From a virus, in IMG/VR virus record IMGVR_UViG_3300021962_006383, positions 1 to 36,213 of that record: a stretch of 36,213 bases of DNA; one strand, given 5' to 3'. How positions within the stretch are numbered: position 1 is the stretch's first letter; the number at the start of each line of letters is the position of its first letter. The notes beneath the pieces are model-generated. The model did not search any database and had not been told where the DNA came from. It worked only from the letters and a program-made list of their open reading frames with translations. Below are positions 13,110 to 36,213 of this stretch, piece by piece. A program made the translations under genes and the position numbers.

Positions 13110-13715
13110 CTATATTTTACAGTAAACTTCGCAGTCTGTAAACCTTAAATAATTTTTTGGTTTATTGATGCCTAACATTTCTGCGAGATCTAGATTGTTG
13201 TGAATGGAGTATAAACGATGTTGTTCTTTGAAGGTGATTATTGCTTCGTTCTGAATTTCGATCTGATGTCGCATAACCAAATCATTTTGATACCAATGAT
13301 AGTTAGGATATGTGATATCCCAGCCCCCGGCTTCTTTCCACCAATCAAAGCAGTCTTCATTATAACGATATACTAATACAATAGGATCTGGAAATAATAC
13401 ATTAATTTTACCAATGTGTTCTGATAAGACGTGACTTTTTATAATTTTGTTTGGACCTGGCTCTAAAAAAGCAGAATTAAACATCTCTATGAGATCTGTC
13501 TTTGATAGTGTATCAAACTGTTCTAATTTTCCTCCAAATTCCATACCTGGATCAAAGTAACTGCCCAGATGCATTAACTCTTTGGATTTTAAATTGTGAT
13601 ACAATCTTTCCTGTGAGTAGTCTGAACGGTTCACGGAATCGCTAAAATAGATACTTTTGGCCACACCGCTCCAGCGAGAACCAGGTGCACCTACTAGGAA
13701 TATGTAATCGTTCAT
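13110..13715 (-). CDS. Sulfotransferase-like protein
   Basis: 201 aa. The N-terminus FLVGAPGSRWSGVAKSIY resembles the 5'-phosphosulfate loop of PAPS-dependent sulfotransferases; KIIKSHVLSEHI and IVLVYRYNEDCFDWW match the following strands, the second being the 3'-phosphate-binding strand where Arg is expected (YRYN). It is shorter than most cellular sulfotransferases (about 250-300 aa). It overlaps the small membrane gene by 4 bases and precedes the methyltransferase by 2. An acceptor cannot be named. Confidence 0.6.
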   Translation of the reverse strand: MNDYIFLVGAPGSRWSGVAKSIYFSDSVNRSDYSQERLYHNLKSKELMHLGSYFDPGMEFGGKLEQFDTLSKTDLIEMFNSAFLEPGPNKIIKSHVLSEHIGKINVLFPDPIVLVYRYNEDCFDWWKEAGGWDITYPNYHWYQNDLVMRHQIEIQNEAIITFKEQHRLYSIHNNLDLAEMLGINKPKNYLRFTDCEVYCKI

Positions 13716-13939
13716 CGTGCTATGTAGTATATATAGATCAACACAGGTATGATAATAAAAAATTGTGGAAGAAAATTAAGGATTATCGATTTCTCTTTCC
13801 ATTTATATCCCACATACACCCAACCAGCGGCACCCAACATCTGTACAAAACTGTTCCATGGTGTTACACCTGCGACGTGCAACACCATAGCAATTAGAAT
13901 TAACACAGCACTGGTGTATTTTACAACAGTAACCTTCAT
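13712..13939 (-). CDS. Small membrane protein next to TctC
   Basis: 75 aa with two or three membrane segments (about 8-24, 31-46 and 53-73). It is transcribed directly after TctA and TctC (4-base overlaps), where tripartite tricarboxylate transporters carry the small subunit TctB. TctB is about twice this length with four segments, so this is either a minimal stand-in or an unrelated small membrane protein of the type common in marine Alphaproteobacteria. Confidence 0.6.
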   Translation of the reverse strand: MKVTVVKYTSAVLILIAMVLHVAGVTPWNSFVQMLGAAGWVYVGYKWKEKSIILNFLPQFFIIIPVLIYIYYIAR

Positions 13940-14979
13940 TTGGTTAGTGCCTCTTTGTACACTGTGTTATATCCCAATTGATTTTTACCAAAGTCAGATA
14001 AGGTTTTCAGTGCTTGTGGAGTGATGAACGTTTTCAATTTCCTCACTGCCGCATCGCCCTCCGAACCGGTCCTCCATTGATACTTGCCCACTTTCTTTTC
14101 TATTGCGGCAATGGATTGAGGATCAGCCAGCATCTTGTCTAAAGCATCAATCAACTTTTGTTTGTTGGGATTGCCCTTGTTCACCCAGAATGCTTTCTGT
14201 AGTGCATCTCTCCAGCTCTTGACCAATCGATAGGCATCGTAGAAATCGCCCTTGGGTTCTTGCCCCCAGGTCTTTTTGTACAGCTCTTCAAATGTGGGTG
14301 CTGAGAAGTTGGGATCCTTTTCGTGCTTGCCTGTGTTCACATTCAACAAACCATGATGGAACCAAGTGAACGCTATTCCATCCTCGGCCAACGGTTCCAC
14401 GTGCTTCTTGTAGGCGGCGGGATTTTCTCTGGTGGCATTCAAATCACCCCTGCGAAATGCCAGTCGTCTCTCAGATCCCGTCATGCCTTTAACCCACACG
14501 ATCTTTTCTGCAAACACCTGATTGTAATCTGCTCCCGGTCCTCCCAACAGCATTGTGATTGCCATTATCTCCGGTGTCATTCCCGATCCCGCCGCGAACC
14601 TGATTGGTCCTTTCCGTGTGTCGGCGCCCTTCCTGGAACCCACGATGATGTTGAGATTCATCTGTCCCACCGATTCCCAATCTAGATAGTTGTAGTCCAC
14701 TGGCTCAACGAGATAGGATATTCCATTGCCACCGTGTGATACCAATATGGTTTTATCATCAAATCTCAGTGTGTTTTGAAACTCATTGGGACCTGCTTGG
14801 TCTCGAGCTCCCGGTTTGTACACAAGATTGATCTTTTCTCCCAGGTGCTTCTCCCATTCTTTGACCACTATCTGTGCCCATACAGATGTTCCATCTGATG
14901 GTTTTTGTGGCACGATCAACGTGTAATCCGCCACTGCCACTGACGTCATCAACATCAGTGCTGTGATTATTCTAAACAT
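13936..14979 (-). CDS. tctC: Tripartite tricarboxylate transporter substrate-binding protein
   Basis: 347 aa with a clear signal peptide (MFRIITALMLMTSVAVA, cleaved before DYTLIVPQ), so it acts in the periplasm. The mature part follows the TctC plan: a KPSDGTSVWAQIV strand-helix, then INLVYKPGARDQAGPNEF, the ligand loop of this family, and ISYLVEPVDYNYLDWE. It would hand a carboxylate to TctA. The segment is rich in G+C (34 of 60 bases at 14041-14100), unlike most of the window, which points to acquisition from a bacterium of higher GC. It overlaps tctA by 8 bases. Confidence 0.85.
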   Translation of the reverse strand: MFRIITALMLMTSVAVADYTLIVPQKPSDGTSVWAQIVVKEWEKHLGEKINLVYKPGARDQAGPNEFQNTLRFDDKTILVSHGGNGISYLVEPVDYNYLDWESVGQMNLNIIVGSRKGADTRKGPIRFAAGSGMTPEIMAITMLLGGPGADYNQVFAEKIVWVKGMTGSERRLAFRRGDLNATRENPAAYKKHVEPLAEDGIAFTWFHHGLLNVNTGKHEKDPNFSAPTFEELYKKTWGQEPKGDFYDAYRLVKSWRDALQKAFWVNKGNPNKQKLIDALDKMLADPQSIAAIEKKVGKYQWRTGSEGDAAVRKLKTFITPQALKTLSDFGKNQLGYNTVYKEALTK

Positions 14980-16408
14980 AATCTATTCTACTCCTTTTGG
15001 TTATGCCCCAATATCCCAACATTATCACACACAGCATTATTGTTAAGAAGATGGGTCTCGTGACCAACTCTCCCGGTGTGTGCAATGCGATGAGCTGATA
15101 GGTGAGGCTGTAGATCCTATCACTCAACAGGAATCCAATCAGCAGTGCTGGACGGCTGAATTGAAATCTTTTACATAGCAGACCCAGTGCGGAACAGATC
15201 GCCAACATCGCGATGTCCTGCCAACTGCCTGTGTATTGCAGTGTGGCCCACACAATGGTTGCTATAATGAATGGAAAATAATAAACGTAAGGCACTCGTG
15301 TCACCCAGCCTGCGAAGTAGGCCAGGCCATAGCAGATCATAGCAGTGATCACGGTGCCCAATAAGAATGCGTATGTGAGGCTGTCAAATAATTTTGTATC
15401 ATAGAATGTGTCAGGAGATCCCAGGTCTATGCCCACATAGAGAAATAGTGCCATCAGGATGGCGGCGAATGGTGCTCCCGGTATGCCGAACAGCACAGTA
15501 GGAATGAATGACGCGGCCTTCTGGGCATTGTTGGCTCCTTCGCAACCAATTACCCCTCTGATGTTGCCCCGGCCAAAACTCTCTTTGGGATTGGAGGCCA
15601 CTGTGGCTCCATAGGCTAACCAGTCCGCCATCGCTCCTCCCAATCCTGGCAGTAGTCCTATGAATGATCCAATGGCACCGCCACGCAAGGAATCTCTCCA
15701 ACAATTAACAGTATCTCGAATACCTTGTAGAATACCCTTAGTAGATCCTTGTAAATTTTTATGAGAAATTGTCTGTTTCCTTTTGACCCAACCTTCCCAT
15801 AGTTCTGGTATAGCAAACAAGCCTGCTACAAACGGCAATATCTGTACACCATCTTCAAGATATCTCCAACCCGCTGTGAAACGTGGCACGTTGTTCACGT
15901 CCACACCTATCAGTCCAACGAATATGCCCAGTGCTATGGCCAGTATGCTCCTAACGTATTTTCTTGTGGAAACAAATCCCACAGTGACGAATGCCAATAT
16001 GACCAATGCCCACAGTTCAGGTATGCCCATGAACATCACAATCTTTGTGTAGTAAGGTAAAAACAGAAATGTCAGAGATCCAAATAATAATCCATTCAAT
16101 GTAGACGAAGTGATTGCGGCTGACAGTGCTCTGGATGCTTCACCATTCCTCGCCATAGGAAAGCCGTCCACCATGGTAGCGGCCGCAGAGTTAGCACCAG
16201 GTATACCCAACAGCACACCTGAAAAAGAATCACCGGTTGTGGATGAGGCAACGACAGCAACACAGAAGATCACACCCAAATAAGGATCACTCGCAAAGTA
16301 GGGCATGAATCCAAACAGTGTTATCAATCCTGTTGTTGCTCCAGCGGCTGGTATTAGGCCAATGATTAAGCCATAAACAATACCTGCCAGCAGTATAGCA
16401 AGTTCCAT
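14972..16408 (-). CDS. tctA: Tripartite tricarboxylate transporter large membrane subunit
   Basis: 478 aa, normal for TctA (about 500), with about 12 membrane segments. The two family signatures are present: GLIPAAGATTGLITLFGF near the N-terminus and GLLPGLGGAMADWLAYG in the middle, plus TGDSFSGVLLGIPGANSAA. With TctC it should import a di- or tricarboxylate using an ion gradient. It leads a tctA-tctC-membrane protein-sulfotransferase-methyltransferase run. No Shine-Dalgarno lies before the ATG. The 76 bases upstream (16409-16484) hold no promoter I can support. Confidence 0.88.
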   Translation of the reverse strand: MELAILLAGIVYGLIIGLIPAAGATTGLITLFGFMPYFASDPYLGVIFCVAVVASSTTGDSFSGVLLGIPGANSAAATMVDGFPMARNGEASRALSAAITSSTLNGLLFGSLTFLFLPYYTKIVMFMGIPELWALVILAFVTVGFVSTRKYVRSILAIALGIFVGLIGVDVNNVPRFTAGWRYLEDGVQILPFVAGLFAIPELWEGWVKRKQTISHKNLQGSTKGILQGIRDTVNCWRDSLRGGAIGSFIGLLPGLGGAMADWLAYGATVASNPKESFGRGNIRGVIGCEGANNAQKAASFIPTVLFGIPGAPFAAILMALFLYVGIDLGSPDTFYDTKLFDSLTYAFLLGTVITAMICYGLAYFAGWVTRVPYVYYFPFIIATIVWATLQYTGSWQDIAMLAICSALGLLCKRFQFSRPALLIGFLLSDRIYSLTYQLIALHTPGELVTRPIFLTIMLCVIMLGYWGITKRSRIDYV

Positions 16409-28692: not shown

Positions 28693-31353
28693 TTAAAACT
28701 CAAACAGTGAATTGAAGGTATTTTTGGATTCAGTAGATCTTATGTCCCATTCTAACACTCCAATAAGATTATCTATCTTTTGATCTAATATAGTTGCTTC
28801 CATTGCTTCAGAATCAAATGCTAATTCTTTAAACCACTCTGGAATACGCATCTCGTCCACTGGATATGCTATACTTGTATAGCCCAGCGGATTATTTTTT
28901 AATTTACATACAATAACCTTAGCACCGTCTGTGATAGGCATAGAATAACGATCACCATACATATCTCGACAGTTGTTCCAGTTAATAGATGCTCTCACGT
29001 GACCTGGCATATTGGCACGACCTGCTTTCTTTTCTTTTTCCCAATACTCTGTGATATTGTTTGCTCTTTTTGGAGAACCTTTCTCCCAGCCTGGTCTTGC
29101 TTTAAACTCTTCTCGAAAACCTTTGATTCTATCTAATACTTCTGTTTCTGTTTTGTTTGTGAGCACCATCATTAATAGCTCTGATAGAAAATCTTGCACA
29201 AACACAGGAGTGTCTGATCTTTTTAAATCTAAACCCATTGCTTTCATTTTGCCTGGTTTGCCTGCTGTGTCCACACGCTCTCCTTCTTTGTCAAAATACA
29301 GCACAGCATATCTTTTCTTTGTGATGAACAGTCCTTTGGATGCTACAATTTCTCGACCGCCTTTGATCACTTCTCCTCGAGATTTAGGACAGTGAAATGC
29401 CTTAGTCATATATGAGTTAAAAGAACCATTAACTTCCTCAGCAATCTTATCGTATAGTTCTACAACATTCTCTTTCTCCCAGGGTATTTTACCTGCTTCA
29501 ATTTCTTTTTGTAAAGGTTTGTAAGCAGAAAAATACACAGAGTCTGTGTCACCGTATATGATAGAATCACCTCGATGATCATAATTGCCTGTGATAATCT
29601 CATTGGTCTTTGCCGCCATATGTTTTGTAATACATCTGCCTGTTAGTGTGACTGATTGTCCAATACGAATATCAAAGAAACGACAGCCTGGATTTAGAAT
29701 AGCACCATACAGCGAGTTTAGATTGATCTTTTTAACCAGTTGCCTCTTATCCCAAAACTCTCTTTCAATATCATTGTCACCACACTCATACATTTTTTTC
29801 TGCATCTCTTTTCTTTCAGCATACCAACGTTTTAATAAGCCTGGAATAATTGCTTCGTATTCATATGTAAAGATTGTGCCATTCGCACTCAGCATCCATT
29901 GATTATTTCCATCAAATATAATGTCGTGTAATTGAGCCGCTGACATTTTAACTGATGTACCATCTTCCCAATCCACAATAATTTCAGTGCCTCGATCCTG
30001 TTTCATCACTGCTTGATATTCCCAACTGCCAAATTGATTATCCCAAGCCTGAGCAAATGATTTCTTTTGATGTTTGGCTCTGTTTACTTCTGCTGATGTA
30101 ATAACTGGACGACATTGTCCTACTATGCTCTCTGGTCCCATATTCAGTGCTCTAATCACAGACGGATACAGTGAATTAATATCGATTGAACCAATCCAAT
30201 TGTGTAGTCCTTTTTTAGGAGTGGCCACATAAGCACCTGCCGCCGCAACATTTTCACCTTCCTCTCTTTTAATTCTGCCTGGCACAATCATTCCACGTCT
30301 GTGTGCTTCGTTTACAATCGCCTGTTCAGTCACTGCCACAGCACCCATTGTGGTCTGTAGTAACACAGTGTTCTGATGAGCAATCTCATTCGCTAATTCA
30401 ATAAACTTTAATTTCTTTTCCAGTTTAGCCAGCAGTGCGGTATCTTGTCTGTTGTATTCTATGAACAAGCCAAAGTCATTGTTGTAGAGAGCATCTAAAG
30501 ATCCCTCATACACAGTCTTTCTCTCATCCAACTCCCATTCACCTATGGCATCTAATCGATACGAATGTCTTTCCTCATAGGTGTATTTTCTGTACAGTTC
30601 TAATAGATCCAGATGCACTCTACCAATTAAATCATAACTGATCTGCTCTCGACCATATTTTTCAAATGTTCTTTTCTTAGGTTTTTCACCCCAAAAACAC
30701 AATCTACGAGTATCATCAGAACTCAATACCTTTTGTATTCTACCCACTGTGTAGGGAATATCGTATCCCTCTGAGTTCCAACCTGATAGTATATCAGCAT
30801 CTTCAATCAGTGTGAGGAAAGCATCCAACATATCTTTTTCTCGTTCAAACAGCATTACGTTATCAAAACGTTCTGTGGCCATTCGTGCTGATCCCATATT
30901 CATACCACGAGGAGGAACAGCAAAGGTTACGAGCTGATCAGTCCAACTGAGATAACAGGTTATGGCAGTGATAGGCATAAATGGATCATCTGTGGTGGAG
31001 TATCCTCTCTTAGGATCAAAGTCTACCTCAATGTCAAAGAACACCACGTTCAGTTTAGGAGCATCTTTGCCTAGATAGTTTTCTTCTAGGCAACGAAACA
31101 CAGGATTGATATCCTGTTCATATAATTTTTTATTTGATCTTATTTTTTGCTCTCGTATAAAATCTTTAAACGTAGCAGTTTGAACTTTTTGTAGTTTTTC
31201 ACCAAATATACTTCTGTGTTTGCCACGAGCATCTGGATAATAAAATATATAACGAGCATCATATTCCACGAACTTACGCTCGCCTTTGCTGTTTCTTTCT
31301 ACAACATAGACTTTATCTTCATCTCTTTTATAGTAAGCGTCTATATAACTCAT
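28693..31353 (-). CDS. 43: Family B DNA polymerase, T4 gp43-like
   Basis: 886 aa (T4 gp43 is 898). Exonuclease motifs: FFDIEVDFD with Asp107 and Glu109, GWNSEGYDIP near 191, and YNRQDTALL near 300. Polymerase motifs: DINSLYPS with Asp391, KINLNSLYG near 542, and YGDTDSVY with Asp602 and Asp604. The C-terminus ends KNTFNSLFEF, equivalent in position to the RB69 gp43 clamp-binding peptide ending LFDMFDF. It overlaps the upstream membrane gene by 4 bases and belongs to the dsbA-like operon (31888 to 27884). It is intact. Confidence 0.96.
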   Translation of the reverse strand: MSYIDAYYKRDEDKVYVVERNSKGERKFVEYDARYIFYYPDARGKHRSIFGEKLQKVQTATFKDFIREQKIRSNKKLYEQDINPVFRCLEENYLGKDAPKLNVVFFDIEVDFDPKRGYSTTDDPFMPITAITCYLSWTDQLVTFAVPPRGMNMGSARMATERFDNVMLFEREKDMLDAFLTLIEDADILSGWNSEGYDIPYTVGRIQKVLSSDDTRRLCFWGEKPKKRTFEKYGREQISYDLIGRVHLDLLELYRKYTYEERHSYRLDAIGEWELDERKTVYEGSLDALYNNDFGLFIEYNRQDTALLAKLEKKLKFIELANEIAHQNTVLLQTTMGAVAVTEQAIVNEAHRRGMIVPGRIKREEGENVAAAGAYVATPKKGLHNWIGSIDINSLYPSVIRALNMGPESIVGQCRPVITSAEVNRAKHQKKSFAQAWDNQFGSWEYQAVMKQDRGTEIIVDWEDGTSVKMSAAQLHDIIFDGNNQWMLSANGTIFTYEYEAIIPGLLKRWYAERKEMQKKMYECGDNDIEREFWDKRQLVKKINLNSLYGAILNPGCRFFDIRIGQSVTLTGRCITKHMAAKTNEIITGNYDHRGDSIIYGDTDSVYFSAYKPLQKEIEAGKIPWEKENVVELYDKIAEEVNGSFNSYMTKAFHCPKSRGEVIKGGREIVASKGLFITKKRYAVLYFDKEGERVDTAGKPGKMKAMGLDLKRSDTPVFVQDFLSELLMMVLTNKTETEVLDRIKGFREEFKARPGWEKGSPKRANNITEYWEKEKKAGRANMPGHVRASINWNNCRDMYGDRYSMPITDGAKVIVCKLKNNPLGYTSIAYPVDEMRIPEWFKELAFDSEAMEATILDQKIDNLIGVLEWDIRSTESKNTFNSLFEF

Positions 31354-33001: not shown

Positions 33002-33009
33002 TATTTATT
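33002..33009 (-). promoter_or_regulatory. Late promoter box AATAAATA
   Basis: Matches the T4 late element TATAAATA at 7 of 8 bases and the form NATAAATA I recall for marine T4-like phages. Five bases separate it from the ATG at 32996, so the mRNA would start at the ATG. Confidence 0.5.
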
Positions 33010-33619
33010 TAGATAGAAACTCTTTTACCTGTTGTTCTATCTGTTTTAACGCTTCTGGCAACTCTGACTGCTTCTCTAAGGAGTTGTCTATCTCAAAGAA
33101 ACGATCGCCAAACAGCTCTTGGAATCGGGGTACATTGGCTTTAACAGCACCAAAATTCAGCATTAATACTTTCTCAGGTATACTTCGTTCACGAGCTCTA
33201 TTACGTTTAACCGAAGTTTCAATGTCAGCATCCACATATATCATAGCGGTCTCATAGCCCTGTGCTTCTAATTCTTCTTTGGTGTCTACAACTCTAGCCA
33301 ATGATCTTCCTGTGGTGTCTATCAGCATACCCAGACGCTCCTGTTGGTACATCTGTTGCTGTTTGCCCACGATCTGTTTGCTTCGCTGTCTTTCAATCTC
33401 TCGTGGAGTTTCTTCTTCGGGAGGCATTTTAAGACTTAGATTTTTGTTGCGTAGTAGATACTTGAAAGCGGCATCTGGATTGACTTGTTTCAGTCCGTAG
33501 AATATAGAGGCCAGTCTTCGTGCTATGAACGTCTTGCCAGCACCCGGAACGCCAGCGAAGAATATCGCCTTGTTCTGATATGGATCAAAACGACCCTCTA
33601 TGATCTCAGTTATCCTCAT
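33005..33619 (-). CDS. P-loop kinase / zeta-toxin-like ATPase with capsid-targeting-like N-terminus
   Basis: 204 aa. It starts MRITEIIEG, a tag shared with four neighbours, then a Walker A loop GVPGAGKT (residues 23-30), LIDTTGR and VDADIETSVKRNRARE, the layout of AAA_33/zeta-toxin or small-molecule kinases. The start is set by a 4-base ATGA overlap with the previous gene; an ATG at 33652 would add 11 residues. If the tag is a head-targeting sequence cut after Glu8, a kinase would ride in the capsid and be injected. Target unknown. Confidence 0.72.
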   Translation of the reverse strand: MRITEIIEGRFDPYQNKAIFFAGVPGAGKTFIARRLASIFYGLKQVNPDAAFKYLLRNKNLSLKMPPEEETPREIERQRSKQIVGKQQQMYQQERLGMLIDTTGRSLARVVDTKEELEAQGYETAMIYVDADIETSVKRNRARERSIPEKVLMLNFGAVKANVPRFQELFGDRFFEIDNSLEKQSELPEALKQIEQQVKEFLSK

Positions 33620-34110
33620 AATCGTGATTGCGGATTCTTTTTCAAATCCCAAACTTGTAATTGTGTGTCTTTTCTTAACAGTGCCGCGATGAACCTGCCC
33701 ACGCCCATCACTATCTCGCCGTCCACCATGATGGAAGGTTTGGCCGTTGCGGCAGACATTTTCATATATTTCATATATCTATCTGGATTTTTGTCCAACT
33801 GTCTAGCGGCATCATATTTCACATCTATATTCCAATTTTGATTTATACGATCAACCACTTCTTTGGGAGATCTGCTGATAGAATCTCGATTCATCTCTTT
33901 TTGTAATAATGCTTGGACGGATACTGTTCGAGGCATAGCAGATTGTAGATCCAACCCATTGACAAAAGACAATCCATCTTCGCTGGGTTGTTTTAATACC
34001 CATTCATCGGCCATTTCATCCTGTAATGCCTGTGGCCATTTTTTGTTATTCATCACAGCGATGATATCGTCTCGTGATACTGGTGCTTCTGTGATCTCCG
34101 TGATACGCAT
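33616..34110 (-). CDS. Unknown 164-aa protein with capsid-targeting-like N-terminus
   Basis: Begins MRITEITEAP, so a prohead-type protease could cut after Glu8. The body has helices and a C-terminal segment, PSIMVDGEIVMGVGRFIAAL, faintly like the ParB/sulfiredoxin nucleotide-binding fold (a glycine-rich GVGRFIAAL). It overlaps the kinase gene by 4 bases. A late box lies 5 bases before its ATG. Not recognised otherwise. Confidence 0.68.
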   Translation of the reverse strand: MRITEITEAPVSRDDIIAVMNNKKWPQALQDEMADEWVLKQPSEDGLSFVNGLDLQSAMPRTVSVQALLQKEMNRDSISRSPKEVVDRINQNWNIDVKYDAARQLDKNPDRYMKYMKMSAATAKPSIMVDGEIVMGVGRFIAALLRKDTQLQVWDLKKNPQSRL

Positions 34111-34115
34111 ATCAA

Positions 34116-34123
34116 TATTTATT
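34116..34123 (-). promoter_or_regulatory. Late promoter box AATAAATA
   Basis: The same octamer as at 33002-33009, again exactly 5 bases before an ATG (34110). It lies over the stop codon of the preceding gene. Confidence 0.5.
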
Positions 34124-34301
34124 TTATGCCTAGTATGTGAGCAAGTTGTTTGCCACTGCTTTCCTCAGGTGTAGATACGTGATCCCTCTTCAGTCCGTAG
34201 CCTGTGCCAGCTTTGCTCTTATGGTGTAGTTTTGGATCGAATGTTGATTGCTCTTTTCGATGATTATTCTTGTGTTTATTTCTTTTTCTTGGTTGCGACA
34301 T
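34119..34301 (-). CDS. Small very basic 60-aa protein
   Basis: MSQPRKRNKHKNNHRKEQST is followed by KLHHKSKAGTGYGLKRDH and ends QLAHILGIK. His, Lys and Arg dominate, so it should bind DNA or RNA. A longer reading frame starts at 34466, but its first half is only a shadow of the overlapping gene; the ATG at 34301 has GGAAAGG 7 bases before it. It overlaps that gene by 26 bases. Confidence 0.6.
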   Translation of the reverse strand: MSQPRKRNKHKNNHRKEQSTFDPKLHHKSKAGTGYGLKRDHVSTPEESSGKQLAHILGIK

Positions 34302-34539
34302 TGATTGCCTTTCCTTTTCTGTCAGGATTTGGATCTTGTCGTCGCTTTCTACCCGCCGCACTTGCCCGGCCTTTTTTGCCCAGTGCGTGTGCTTTGGCTT
34401 GTGGTAAACATTTAGGTTTGCCCTCGGAATCACTTCCTCTGGCACACGGTCCTTTGATCTTTCCATCTGGACCGAATCTTACCCATTTCTGTTTAAACCA
34501 TTTTCTGAGGTCTTCGTTTAAAAATTCGTGTGCTCTCAT
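34276..34539 (-). CDS. Basic 87-aa virion-type protein with capsid-targeting-like N-terminus
   Basis: Starts MRAHEFLNEDLRKW. The body, KWVRFGPDGKIKGPCARGSD then KCLPQAKAHALGKKGRASAA, is rich in Lys, Arg, Gly and Ala with two Cys, a pattern I associate with small repeated modules of marine T4-like phages that probably bind DNA. It starts in TAATG with the gene before it. FLNE could be the protease cut site (LxE type). Confidence 0.7.
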   Translation of the reverse strand: MRAHEFLNEDLRKWFKQKWVRFGPDGKIKGPCARGSDSEGKPKCLPQAKAHALGKKGRASAAGRKRRQDPNPDRKGKAINVATKKKK

Positions 34540-34691
34540 TACTTGCTTTTATTACCCCAGTTAGCGGCTCCAACCTTTCTACACTTTGCCAATGCACCTG
34601 ATGCATAAGCAGAAGGCCAGACCTTGTATCGCGACTTCACTTTTCTGTAGCAGGCGTCTTTCTTGCCTTCTACAACTTCGTGTATCCTCAT
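34539..34691 (-). CDS. Basic 50-aa DUF5872-like protein with capsid-targeting-like N-terminus
   Basis: MRIHEVVEGKKDACYRKVKS is followed by RYKVWPSAYASGALAKCRKV and ends NWGNKSK. The YKVWPSAYASGA..KCRKV block is a widely repeated phage module that I recall as DUF5872. Two Cys and many Lys suggest DNA or metal binding. VVE followed by Gly fits a prohead-protease site. It lies between the 333-aa gene and the next basic gene with only one base either way. Confidence 0.72.
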   Translation of the reverse strand: MRIHEVVEGKKDACYRKVKSRYKVWPSAYASGALAKCRKVGAANWGNKSK

Positions 34692-34692
34692 C

Positions 34693-35694
34693 CTATTTTC
34701 CTTGTTGATTGTTTTCAGACAGCTCGTCGGTGTAGTTAACTTCTTTGACTGCCTTTTCCACAGTGTCTTTGTCAGACATTGTATGAATCTCTACGTTCTC
34801 GCCATCCTGTTTTACTTCTGCTTGGACGCCAGCATCTTTTAATTTCTTTTCTACTGTGGAAGCATCACCTTTCACGCTGTGTTTTCTTGGCTCTGATTGA
34901 CCTTCGTGTCCCGATGCTTCGTTGGTATCTTCGTTAGCTCTCATCAATGCATTCTTTACACTAGGGTGATCCGCTAGGCCTGGAGCAATCTTGTTGATCA
35001 CTTCCACAGCACCATCATAGTTGCCACCTTTGTACTTGGGATCATTTAACACACCAAATGCCATTTTGATCTGTTTGTCAGTGAAGCCCGAATCATCTTT
35101 GTCGTCTTCTTCGAGTTCATTAACTAGTTCACCGATGGTTACTCTGCCATCTTCACCAACTTTGATATTCTCGTCAGCGATCATTTTATACATATCAACC
35201 ATTTGGCTTAATGTGGCATTTTTTAAGAAGTATTCTAGCAACTCTCTCAATTTGCCTTTGAAGTTGTCTTCATCGTATGTGTTCTCTTCTAATTCTTGAG
35301 ATTTTAATTCTTCAATTTTTGCTTGTAGTTCAGCAATCTTGTCTAATCTTTTAGATTCTTTTTTCACTTCTTGTTCAATCTCTTCTGCCACAGTTCGTTC
35401 TTTGGTGTCTGCTTCTCTGATTGCCTTAGTGATGATTGACTCTTCTGTTTTTTCTTGTGTGATTGATTCGATCAGTGCTTCTGCTTTTTTGGAAACTTTT
35501 GTAGTTTCAGTGTATTCTTTGATACCTGCCAGTTTGGCAATGTCTGCTAGAGTAACATCTTTGTCATCTAGTATTCTTGGCTCTTGTCTAGCCGCTTCCA
35601 TTAATTGAGCTCGCTCTTTTTCAGGGGTTATATTGCTTAATTCGTTAAGTCTTTTTACAATATCCAGCCAGTTGTCAGTGTGTTTTGTTGTCAT
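34693..35694 (-). CDS. Acidic coiled-coil protein, possible prohead core or internal protein
   Basis: 333 aa, strongly acidic, with a long charged helical region (about 60-145), a middle domain (LLEYFLKNATLSQMVDMYKM, then MAFGVLNDPKYKGGNYDGAV), and a disordered Glu/Ser/Asn-rich part. Several I/L-x-E sites followed by Ala (for example LMEAA and IREAD) would suit a prohead-protease substrate. Coiled-coil and acidic content are features of scaffolding-core proteins, but it is not recognised. A weak late-like box, CTAAATA, lies 7 bases before its ATG. Confidence 0.7.
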   Translation of the reverse strand: MTTKHTDNWLDIVKRLNELSNITPEKERAQLMEAARQEPRILDDKDVTLADIAKLAGIKEYTETTKVSKKAEALIESITQEKTEESIITKAIREADTKERTVAEEIEQEVKKESKRLDKIAELQAKIEELKSQELEENTYDEDNFKGKLRELLEYFLKNATLSQMVDMYKMIADENIKVGEDGRVTIGELVNELEEDDKDDSGFTDKQIKMAFGVLNDPKYKGGNYDGAVEVINKIAPGLADHPSVKNALMRANEDTNEASGHEGQSEPRKHSVKGDASTVEKKLKDAGVQAEVKQDGENVEIHTMSDKDTVEKAVKEVNYTDELSENNQQGK

Positions 35695-35734
35695 ACTGAA
35701 TTATTTAGCTTATATAAACATCTTTGTTATAATG

Positions 35735-35887
35735 TTATTTTACTGATTTTGATTTGGTCTTACGACCTTTTTGGCGTGCTTTACGTCCAGCACAGTGCGC
35801 CTTCTGTGAGAACCCTCGAGGATTGGAACAATCAACAGAACGTTTGTATTTGCGAGTCCAGGCTTCCTGTATCTCGTGAAATCTCAT
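35735..35887 (-). CDS. Basic 50-aa protein with capsid-targeting-like N-terminus
   Basis: MRFHEIQEAWTRKYKRSVDC, then SNPRGFSQKAHCAGRKARQK and ending KTKSKSVK. The DCSNPRGFSQKAHCAGRKAR block is a compact module familiar from T4-like cyanophages, with two Cys. IQE followed by Ala fits the (I/L)-x-E prohead-protease rule. Its ATG overlaps the stop of the upstream gene (TAATG). Confidence 0.75.
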   Translation of the reverse strand: MRFHEIQEAWTRKYKRSVDCSNPRGFSQKAHCAGRKARQKGRKTKSKSVK

Positions 35888-36213
35888 TATATTCCTGTGG
35901 TTCTTAACTTGTCTAATCTTGCTGACAGCTTGTCTTTCAGCTCTTGATCATAGGATGTCCTAGGATCTTTGGATATGGTTGATAGAGCCTGCATCTTGGA
36001 TTGATATGCTTCTCTGTCCTGTTTTTGTTTCACAAGATCCACAGGACCTCTCAGTTTGTTGAGTATTTTTCTTTTGAAGGGAGTATTAACATTGTACTCT
36101 TGTATGTGTCTAGAATAAGGAGCCATTGCGGCCACTTGCTTGCCAAATCTCAGTTCCTGATTCCTTGCCAGTTCCTTGGCTGGTTTGTTATGGAAGTGTG
36201 CTCTCTTTTGGAA
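35887..36213 (-). CDS. Unknown basic protein (N-terminus cut by the window edge)
   Basis: The frame is open to the right edge, so the protein is at least 108 aa; starts at 36135 (GTG) or 36126 (ATG) are possible but not needed. The visible part is basic, ending NTPFKRKILNKLRGPVDL..., then helical and Gln/Lys-rich. Function unknown, but it is coupled to the tagged 50-aa gene, so it is probably part of the same virion cluster. Confidence 0.6.
   Translation of the reverse strand, partial: FQKRAHFHNKPAKELARNQELRFGKQVAAMAPYSRHIQEYNVNTPFKRKILNKLRGPVDLVKQKQDREAYQSKMQALSTISKDPRTSYDQELKDKLSARLDKLRTTGI

Follow-up and report, generated by a model that had tools for sequence, protein, structure and literature searches.

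Putative capsid-targeting leaders ending in glutamate on five neighbouring genes of an uncultured T4-type phage

In bacteriophage T4, a short leader takes internal proteins, and also GFP fused to it, into the core of the prohead, and the protease gp21 removes the leader (PMC9958956). Here we describe a 36-kb virus fragment (IMG/VR record IMGVR_UViG_3300021962_006383; 36,213 nucleotides, the whole of which is called the window below), in which five right-end genes begin with a shared N-terminal tag. Based on sequence comparison, these five N-termini are probably removable capsid-targeting propeptides that mark packaged head cargo, a reading to which we assign a probability of about 0.8. The capsid-targeting function proposed in an earlier note on this DNA is supported by the recurrence of the tag on unrelated bodies, a conserved Glu boundary, a gp21-family protease in relatives and a tag of the same type on a virion enzyme detected by mass spectrometry (MS).

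The five genes all lie on the minus strand, with starts confirmed at 33619, 34110, 34539, 34691 and 35887, and their tags and boundaries (↓) are MRITEIIE↓G, MRITEITE↓A, MRAHEFLNE↓D, MRIHEVVE↓G and MRFHEIQE↓A, respectively (Table 1). Four of the tags have 8 residues, and MRAHEFLNE has 9. The five tags thus fit a feature of T4-type proteins bearing a capsid-targeting sequence (CTS), namely an N-terminal peptide of ~6-10 residues that begins M[KR] and ends in hydrophobic-x-Glu. Behind the shared tag stand unrelated bodies, comprising a P-loop kinase, a protein of 164 amino acids (aa) and three proteins rightly described as small and basic, with isoelectric points (pI) of 10.8, 10.2 and 11.1 (the 87-aa and the two 50-aa proteins). 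In the proposed mechanism, the 8-9 residue tag would dock each protein into the prohead scaffolding core during head assembly, a protease of the T4 gp21 family would cleave behind the final Glu ([ILVF]-x-E↓), and the cargo so released would remain in the head with the DNA and probably pass into the host. Of this cargo, the three small basic proteins would act as binding partners of the packaged DNA, and the P-loop kinase would serve as an enzyme that reaches the host as soon as infection starts. Comparison with related systems strongly supports loading and cutting; that the proteins are cleaved, packaged and injected in the window phage itself, the kinase among them, what each cargo does, and on which substrate the kinase acts, we infer by analogy.

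The close relatives of the window are uncultured IMG/VR contigs, and its DNA polymerase is closest to those of the Sinorhizobium/Agrobacterium jumbo phages Phosso (50% identity) and Atu_ph07 (45%). A first DNA pattern for the tag (ATGCGN..) gave no match because the Arg and Ile codons vary, and relatives were scanned at the protein level instead. In related contigs found via the polymerase or the kinase, ~15 unrelated families start M[KRQ]xxE[IVLF]. Inside one ~5-kb cluster beside the polymerase lie four of the six such starts of a 172-kb relative and all five of a 114-kb relative; tagged starts outside the cluster, one of them on a radical-SAM-like protein, look like chance. The tag recurs on many unrelated bodies, largely within one cluster and with no spread to genes of replication or metabolism, an outcome that the earlier note would have taken as a refutation. 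The late-promoter-like element TAAATA lies upstream of 27 of 75 tagged genes (36%) versus 114 of 722 other genes (16%) in the relatives (p=9e-5); late genes of T4 have a TATAAATA-type late promoter, and the window shows TAAATA close to the 164-aa gene. A very broad pattern, M[KR]x(2-6)[LIVMF]xE, is weakly specific (30/873 starts versus 33/2123 internal Met in Atu_ph07; 14/607 versus 15/1827 in Phosso), and the argument does not rest on it. Neither Phosso nor 10 other Atu_ph07-like records gave a hit with a profile of the kinase, so the kinase appears to be a patchy cargo.

The boundary between leader and cargo is visible in other contexts, as the bodies also occur fused inside larger proteins, where the preceding residue is mostly Glu again. 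Glu occupies this position (P1) in 76% of 29 contexts preceding WSxKYKKSI[ND]C, in 93% of 15 preceding xAAWT[KR]KAGK and in 65% of 55 preceding K-CWKGY, compared with mostly 0-30% at other positions. Among 10 kinase homologs, E8-G9 is invariant despite differing tags (MRITEIIE↓G, MKTFAELQE↓G, MIPFILKE↓G), and Atu_ph07 places its homolog after VTE↓G within a fusion with an ART-like domain. Cyanophage Bellamy gp123 contains IDIEE↓GKKDACYHKVK, such proteins of other cyanophages carry leader-like inner segments (LTFQQFQE↓K, LSFQDFQE↓K), and in the relative L001 the homolog of the 35735-35887 protein is the last, C-terminal module of a 465-aa protein, after RLGE↓. Furthermore, a 45-aa leader, MKIKExxxx..GPNxRFDFxNKGNNRxNE↓, precedes four different cargoes, among which is an Fe/Mn superoxide dismutase, and is joined each time directly after the last Glu. 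As in T4-type CTS-bearing proteins, the same leader thus stands on unrelated bodies with a Glu boundary. The Glu cut rule suggested earlier is supported in that the boundary is kept across polyprotein fusions and changes of tag sequence. The superoxide dismutase itself (L001:2628-3668; Sod_Fe_C, 2.5e-19) is fused, behind the 45-aa leader, to a CWxGY basic module and is a candidate virion-packaged enzyme; a domain of this type was present in 1 of 14 records searched.

A gp21-family protease (Peptidase S77), a gene that the earlier note proposed to look for nearby, is encoded in the complete relatives Atu_ph07, Phosso and Bellamy, and all three also encode gp23. Across 32 distinct N-termini of Atu_ph07-like gp23, the conserved region begins after [hydrophobic]-x-E↓x-A-T/S-[A/S/V]-G, near the alignment position of the mature T4 chain, and the predicted maturation site of the major capsid protein in these phages is LxE↓xATAGATSAGNVA (LME↓xATAGATSAGNVA). 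A tagged family of ~88 aa from the clade of the window repeats this capsid junction (MRINEI[LV]IKE↓QATAGATSAGNIA; MRINEIxIRE↓TATAGATSAGNIA). In Atu_ph07, the 778-aa protein AUZ94865 (L014:39484-41820; tag MKWNDLNE) combines an ART-like domain, a zeta/polynucleotide kinase (PNK)-like kinase and a C-terminal segment that carries the gp23 junction motif (ITE↓TSSAGSTGAGNVAT), and several tagged paralogs of its ART-like part adjoin it.

The Glu boundary and the junction bear directly on the best surviving alternative, in which the proteins are head components whose docking leader is left uncut, or is cut elsewhere, and whose cargo stays in the shell or core and is not injected. Head proteins of giant phages are not all processed (PMC10052503), and some homologs have no Glu exactly at the body boundary. 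However, Glu at P1 is conserved above all other features while the rest of the tag changes, gp21-family proteases occur in complete relatives, and the junction is common to the capsid maturation site, which makes an uncut leader unlikely.

Links to virion proteins come from other phages. T4-GC190 was detected by MS in purified virions of cyanophage S-SM1 (PMC3037559), and NMNAT-like proteins are known from further cyanophage virions (PMC9602691). The S-SM1 T4-GC190 protein, a cytidylyltransferase (phrog_395), starts MKKFSAFLNE↓A and was the one clear tag of this kind in a scan of that phage, and its ortholog in Melnitz (Methylophilales) starts MKKFSEIIE↓A, which is nearly the tag of the window. 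A broad scan of Bellamy gave three tag-like starts at first ATGs, on gp122, on the cytidylyltransferase (MKSLFQFLNE↓A) and on one unconvincing candidate. The tagged genes of Atu_ph07, coding sequences (CDS) 53-62, fall within the MS-confirmed virion cluster CDS 31-76, of which 29 are in the virion (PMC6102473), the text giving the cluster and not which of its 46 genes. Cyanophage T4-GC119 (phrog_727), likely a processed head cargo, adjoins the terminase genes and is labelled a structural protein in one record.

Two further loci were observed in these searches. In Bellamy (MF351863.1, 144781-146016; L344), gp170 is annotated as starting at 144829; this omits the first 16 residues, which form the conserved leader MKSLFQFLNEAQSQAS, and the true start is probably 144781. 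In HTVC008M, the region around the kinase homolog (L012:5185-13136) holds a DUF6267 protein (MYNDLLVE↓D) in which a KWDG motif resembles that of ligases, a cytidylyltransferase and a HAD-like protein (LVQE↓Q), with several Glu-ending starts, and is possibly a cluster of pelagiphage head cargo.

Short linear motifs may serve many purposes, and the shared N-terminus could in principle be a signal for docking or sorting that has nothing to do with the head, directing proteins to a phage compartment, the host polymerase or a degradation route. Against this, tags of the same layout occur on an MS-detected virion protein and on a gene set within an MS-confirmed virion cluster, and the bodies are modules of T4-GC119, with its position beside the terminase genes and its structural label; a role outside the head is therefore very improbable.

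Within the window, 5 of 51 gene starts but none of 244 internal Met contexts fit a strict form of the tag, MRx[TH]E[IVLF]x(1-2)E (Fisher p=1.3e-4), and the last 8 genes include all five tagged ones (hypergeometric 2.4e-5). The pattern was defined once the genes had been seen, which makes both tests post hoc; they agree with the recurrence of the tag in relatives. Identical tag residues are encoded by differing codons (Arg AGG/CGT/AGA; Ile ATA/ATC; Glu GAG/GAA), which points to selection at the peptide level and to no recent DNA duplication, and position 4 is free to vary while E5, I6 and E8 are kept. Recent copying of the 5′ part of a gene (ribosome site and first codons) with no protein-level function, although compatible with a start common to neighbouring genes, was rejected on these codon and position 4 patterns and on the differing upstream regions, and chance resemblance, which a short motif and a pattern set after the fact might favour, was rejected on the 5/51 versus 0/244 count, the ~15 families in relatives and the exact Glu boundaries in fused homologs, so that both have a negligible probability.

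Several points weigh against removable capsid-targeting propeptides. Neither a protease nor a major capsid gene is present on the 36-kb fragment or the nearest contigs, all of which are incomplete, and the 60 kb scanned of the relative with the nearest polymerase (61.8 kb) contain no tagged gene. Some homologs of the 50-aa body have no Glu right at the boundary, for example KGKGSGTKDACY, where [LIV]xE lies 10-11 residues upstream, and two have no recognizable tag (L223, L256). The tags of Atu_ph07 are one step removed (MRWEQLTE, MRLIDLLE), its virion evidence applies to the cluster as a whole, with no individual detected genes named, and the capsid junction matched by the ~88-aa family comes from Atu_ph07-like phages and not from the window's own clade.

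Table 1. Features of the window discussed in the text, with putative assignments.
Feature	Position	Strand	Remarks
Tagged P-loop kinase, 204 aa	33005..33619	-	MRITEIIE↓GRFDPYQNKAIFFAGVPGAGKT; NMP-kinase fold; zeta-toxin/polynucleotide-kinase-like
Tagged 164-aa protein	33616..34110	-	MRITEITE↓APVSRDD; relatives L001-L008 begin MRITEITE/MKINEITE
Tagged basic 87-aa protein	34276..34539	-	MRAHEFLNE↓DLRKWFKQKW; matches part of phrog_727
Tagged basic 50-aa protein	34539..34691	-	MRIHEVVE↓GKKDACYRKVKSRYKVWPSAYASGALAKCRKVGAANWG; phrog_727 4.3e-22
Tagged basic 50-aa protein	35735..35887	-	MRFHEIQE↓AWTRKYKRSVDCSNPRGFSQKAHC; homologs Bellamy gp122, L001 465-aa protein
Putative capsid-targeting propeptide MRITEIIE	33596..33619	-	start of P-loop kinase gene
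Putative capsid-targeting propeptide MRITEITE	34087..34110	-	start of 164-aa gene
Putative capsid-targeting propeptide MRAHEFLNE	34513..34539	-	start of 87-aa gene
Putative capsid-targeting propeptide MRIHEVVE	34668..34691	-	start of 50-aa gene 34539..34691
Putative capsid-targeting propeptide MRFHEIQE	35864..35887	-	start of 50-aa gene 35735..35887
Untagged acidic protein, 333 aa	34693..35694	-	pI 4.8; 21 [hydrophobic]-x-E sites
3′ end of ~500-aa multi-domain protein	35887..36213	-	open-ended open reading frame matching L001 465-aa gene
T4-late-promoter-like TAAATA	34116..34121	-	just 5′ of 164-aa gene
T4-type family B DNA polymerase	28693..31353	-	adjoins tagged cluster in relatives; places phage near Atu_ph07/Phosso

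The kinase matches Pfam AAA_33 (4.5e-11) and Zeta_toxin (2.5e-9), both above cut-off, and carries the Walker A motif GVPGAGKT; a TTG at 33652 could also serve as its start, but relatives conserve the ATG at 33619. Its AlphaFold2 model (pLDDT 71) adopts a fold resembling nucleoside monophosphate (NMP) kinases, with residues 1-14, tag included, disordered. In fold searches adenylate kinases and PNK rank top (TM ~0.5), and the sequence comparison with zeta (1gvn) gave E=0.011. For the 164-aa protein, no family match was obtained in Pfam or PHROGs and no match in annotated phages, and AlphaFold2 gave no usable fold (pLDDT 39, 3 sequences). Two of the three small basic proteins match phrog_727; the one encoded at 34539..34691 has homologs in 370 phage records, of which 94 contexts were read, and the Bellamy gp122 homolog of the other 50-aa protein starts MKSFKQFQE↓SWSNKYKKS.

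Two open reading frames (ORFs) within the cluster have no tag. One encodes the acidic 333-aa protein, which we speculate may be a core or scaffold protein; in record L178, a stretch ending YTDELSE, like its C-terminus, is fused in frame upstream of the 50-aa basic module. The other (34119-34466, 115 aa) overlaps the tagged 87-aa gene in another frame and is conserved in L001 just from about MSQPRKRNKHKNNH, so an internal ATG is probably its true start. The ~500-aa multi-domain protein at the end of the window contains a possible cut site, HIQE↓YNVN, and its relatives begin MKINELN/MRINELNVPVQPDTYEASMF. Elsewhere in the window (13712-16408), three ORFs resemble, as judged by eye, a tripartite tricarboxylate transporter, which is unusual for a phage: one of 347 aa with a signal-like start, and two of 75 and 478 aa that are membrane-like.

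Within the open-access literature searched, no description of CTS-type leaders in these phages was found. What appears new is how many cargo families there are, that leaders and cargo swap at Glu, that separate tagged genes interchange with polyproteins, that T4-GC119/phrog_727 can likely be assigned to processed head cargo, and that the predicted cargo includes enzymes such as a kinase and a superoxide dismutase. The comparisons suggest that the particles of this uncultured marine giant phage, and of many relatives, carry a full set of DNA-binding proteins and enzymes as packaged cargo. A wider proposition, to which we would give even odds, is that of a modular head-cargo system common to marine and jumbo T4-type phages, in which interchangeable Glu-ending leaders and cargo (P-loop kinase, superoxide dismutase, cytidylyltransferase, ART-like proteins and basic domains that bind DNA) are made as separate tagged genes or as protease-cut polyproteins, so that the virion brings a readily exchanged enzyme set into the host. 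If true, a short leader ending in hydrophobic-x-Glu would reveal which uncharacterized proteins of abundant ocean phages travel in the particle, and would provide a function class for phrog_727/T4-GC119-type proteins of hundreds of cyanophages. It would also predict a virion-borne kinase, superoxide dismutase and cytidylyltransferase acting in the first minutes of infection, and offer natural leaders for loading proteins into phage heads.

Among the known systems, the inner head proteins of phiKZ and SPN3US resemble the present case in that a jumbo phage packages many proteins and its protease cuts after x-x-Glu (A-x-E; PMC10052503); unlike the window phage, these phages belong to an unrelated lineage, and their propeptides are mostly of 111-254 residues, the shortest being 20 and 24 and not 8-9. 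The ART-like proteins and the ART-kinase fusion (phrog_12810) of Atu_ph07 CDS 53-62 are closer, being tagged M[KR]W-x-x-L-[TN]-E within a virion-protein cluster, but the tag residues differ from those of the window and the kinase is fused to an ART-like domain, whose profile-based assignment is weak. Cyanophage T4-GC190 is, like the window kinase, a tagged enzyme, in its case of the virion, but it is a different enzyme and has no counterpart in the window. The T4-GC119/phrog_727 proteins (Bellamy gp123, S-SM1 SSM1_115 and Syn9 gp114, encoded between the terminase subunits) contain the 87-aa and 50-aa basic modules of the window internally, with Glu-ending boundaries and CTS-like inner segments, although each is one multi-module protein of 440-620 aa and not a set of separate tagged genes. 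With IPI-IPIII and Alt of T4, finally, the window genes share a short N-terminal peptide ending in hydrophobic-x-Glu, unrelated bodies, and the combination of small basic proteins with an enzyme, and a gp21-family protease is found in complete relatives of the window phage. They differ from the T4 set in their tag (MR-x-[TH]-E-[IVF]-x-E and not MKTYQEFIAE), in having many more tagged families in one cluster, in leaders and cargo that swap and fuse into polyproteins, and in their bodies, none of the five matching an IPI-IPIII or Alt family in Pfam or PHROGs. Judged by the homology of their bodies, the window proteins do not belong to the IP or Alt families, but they would work like the CTS-bearing internal proteins of T4.

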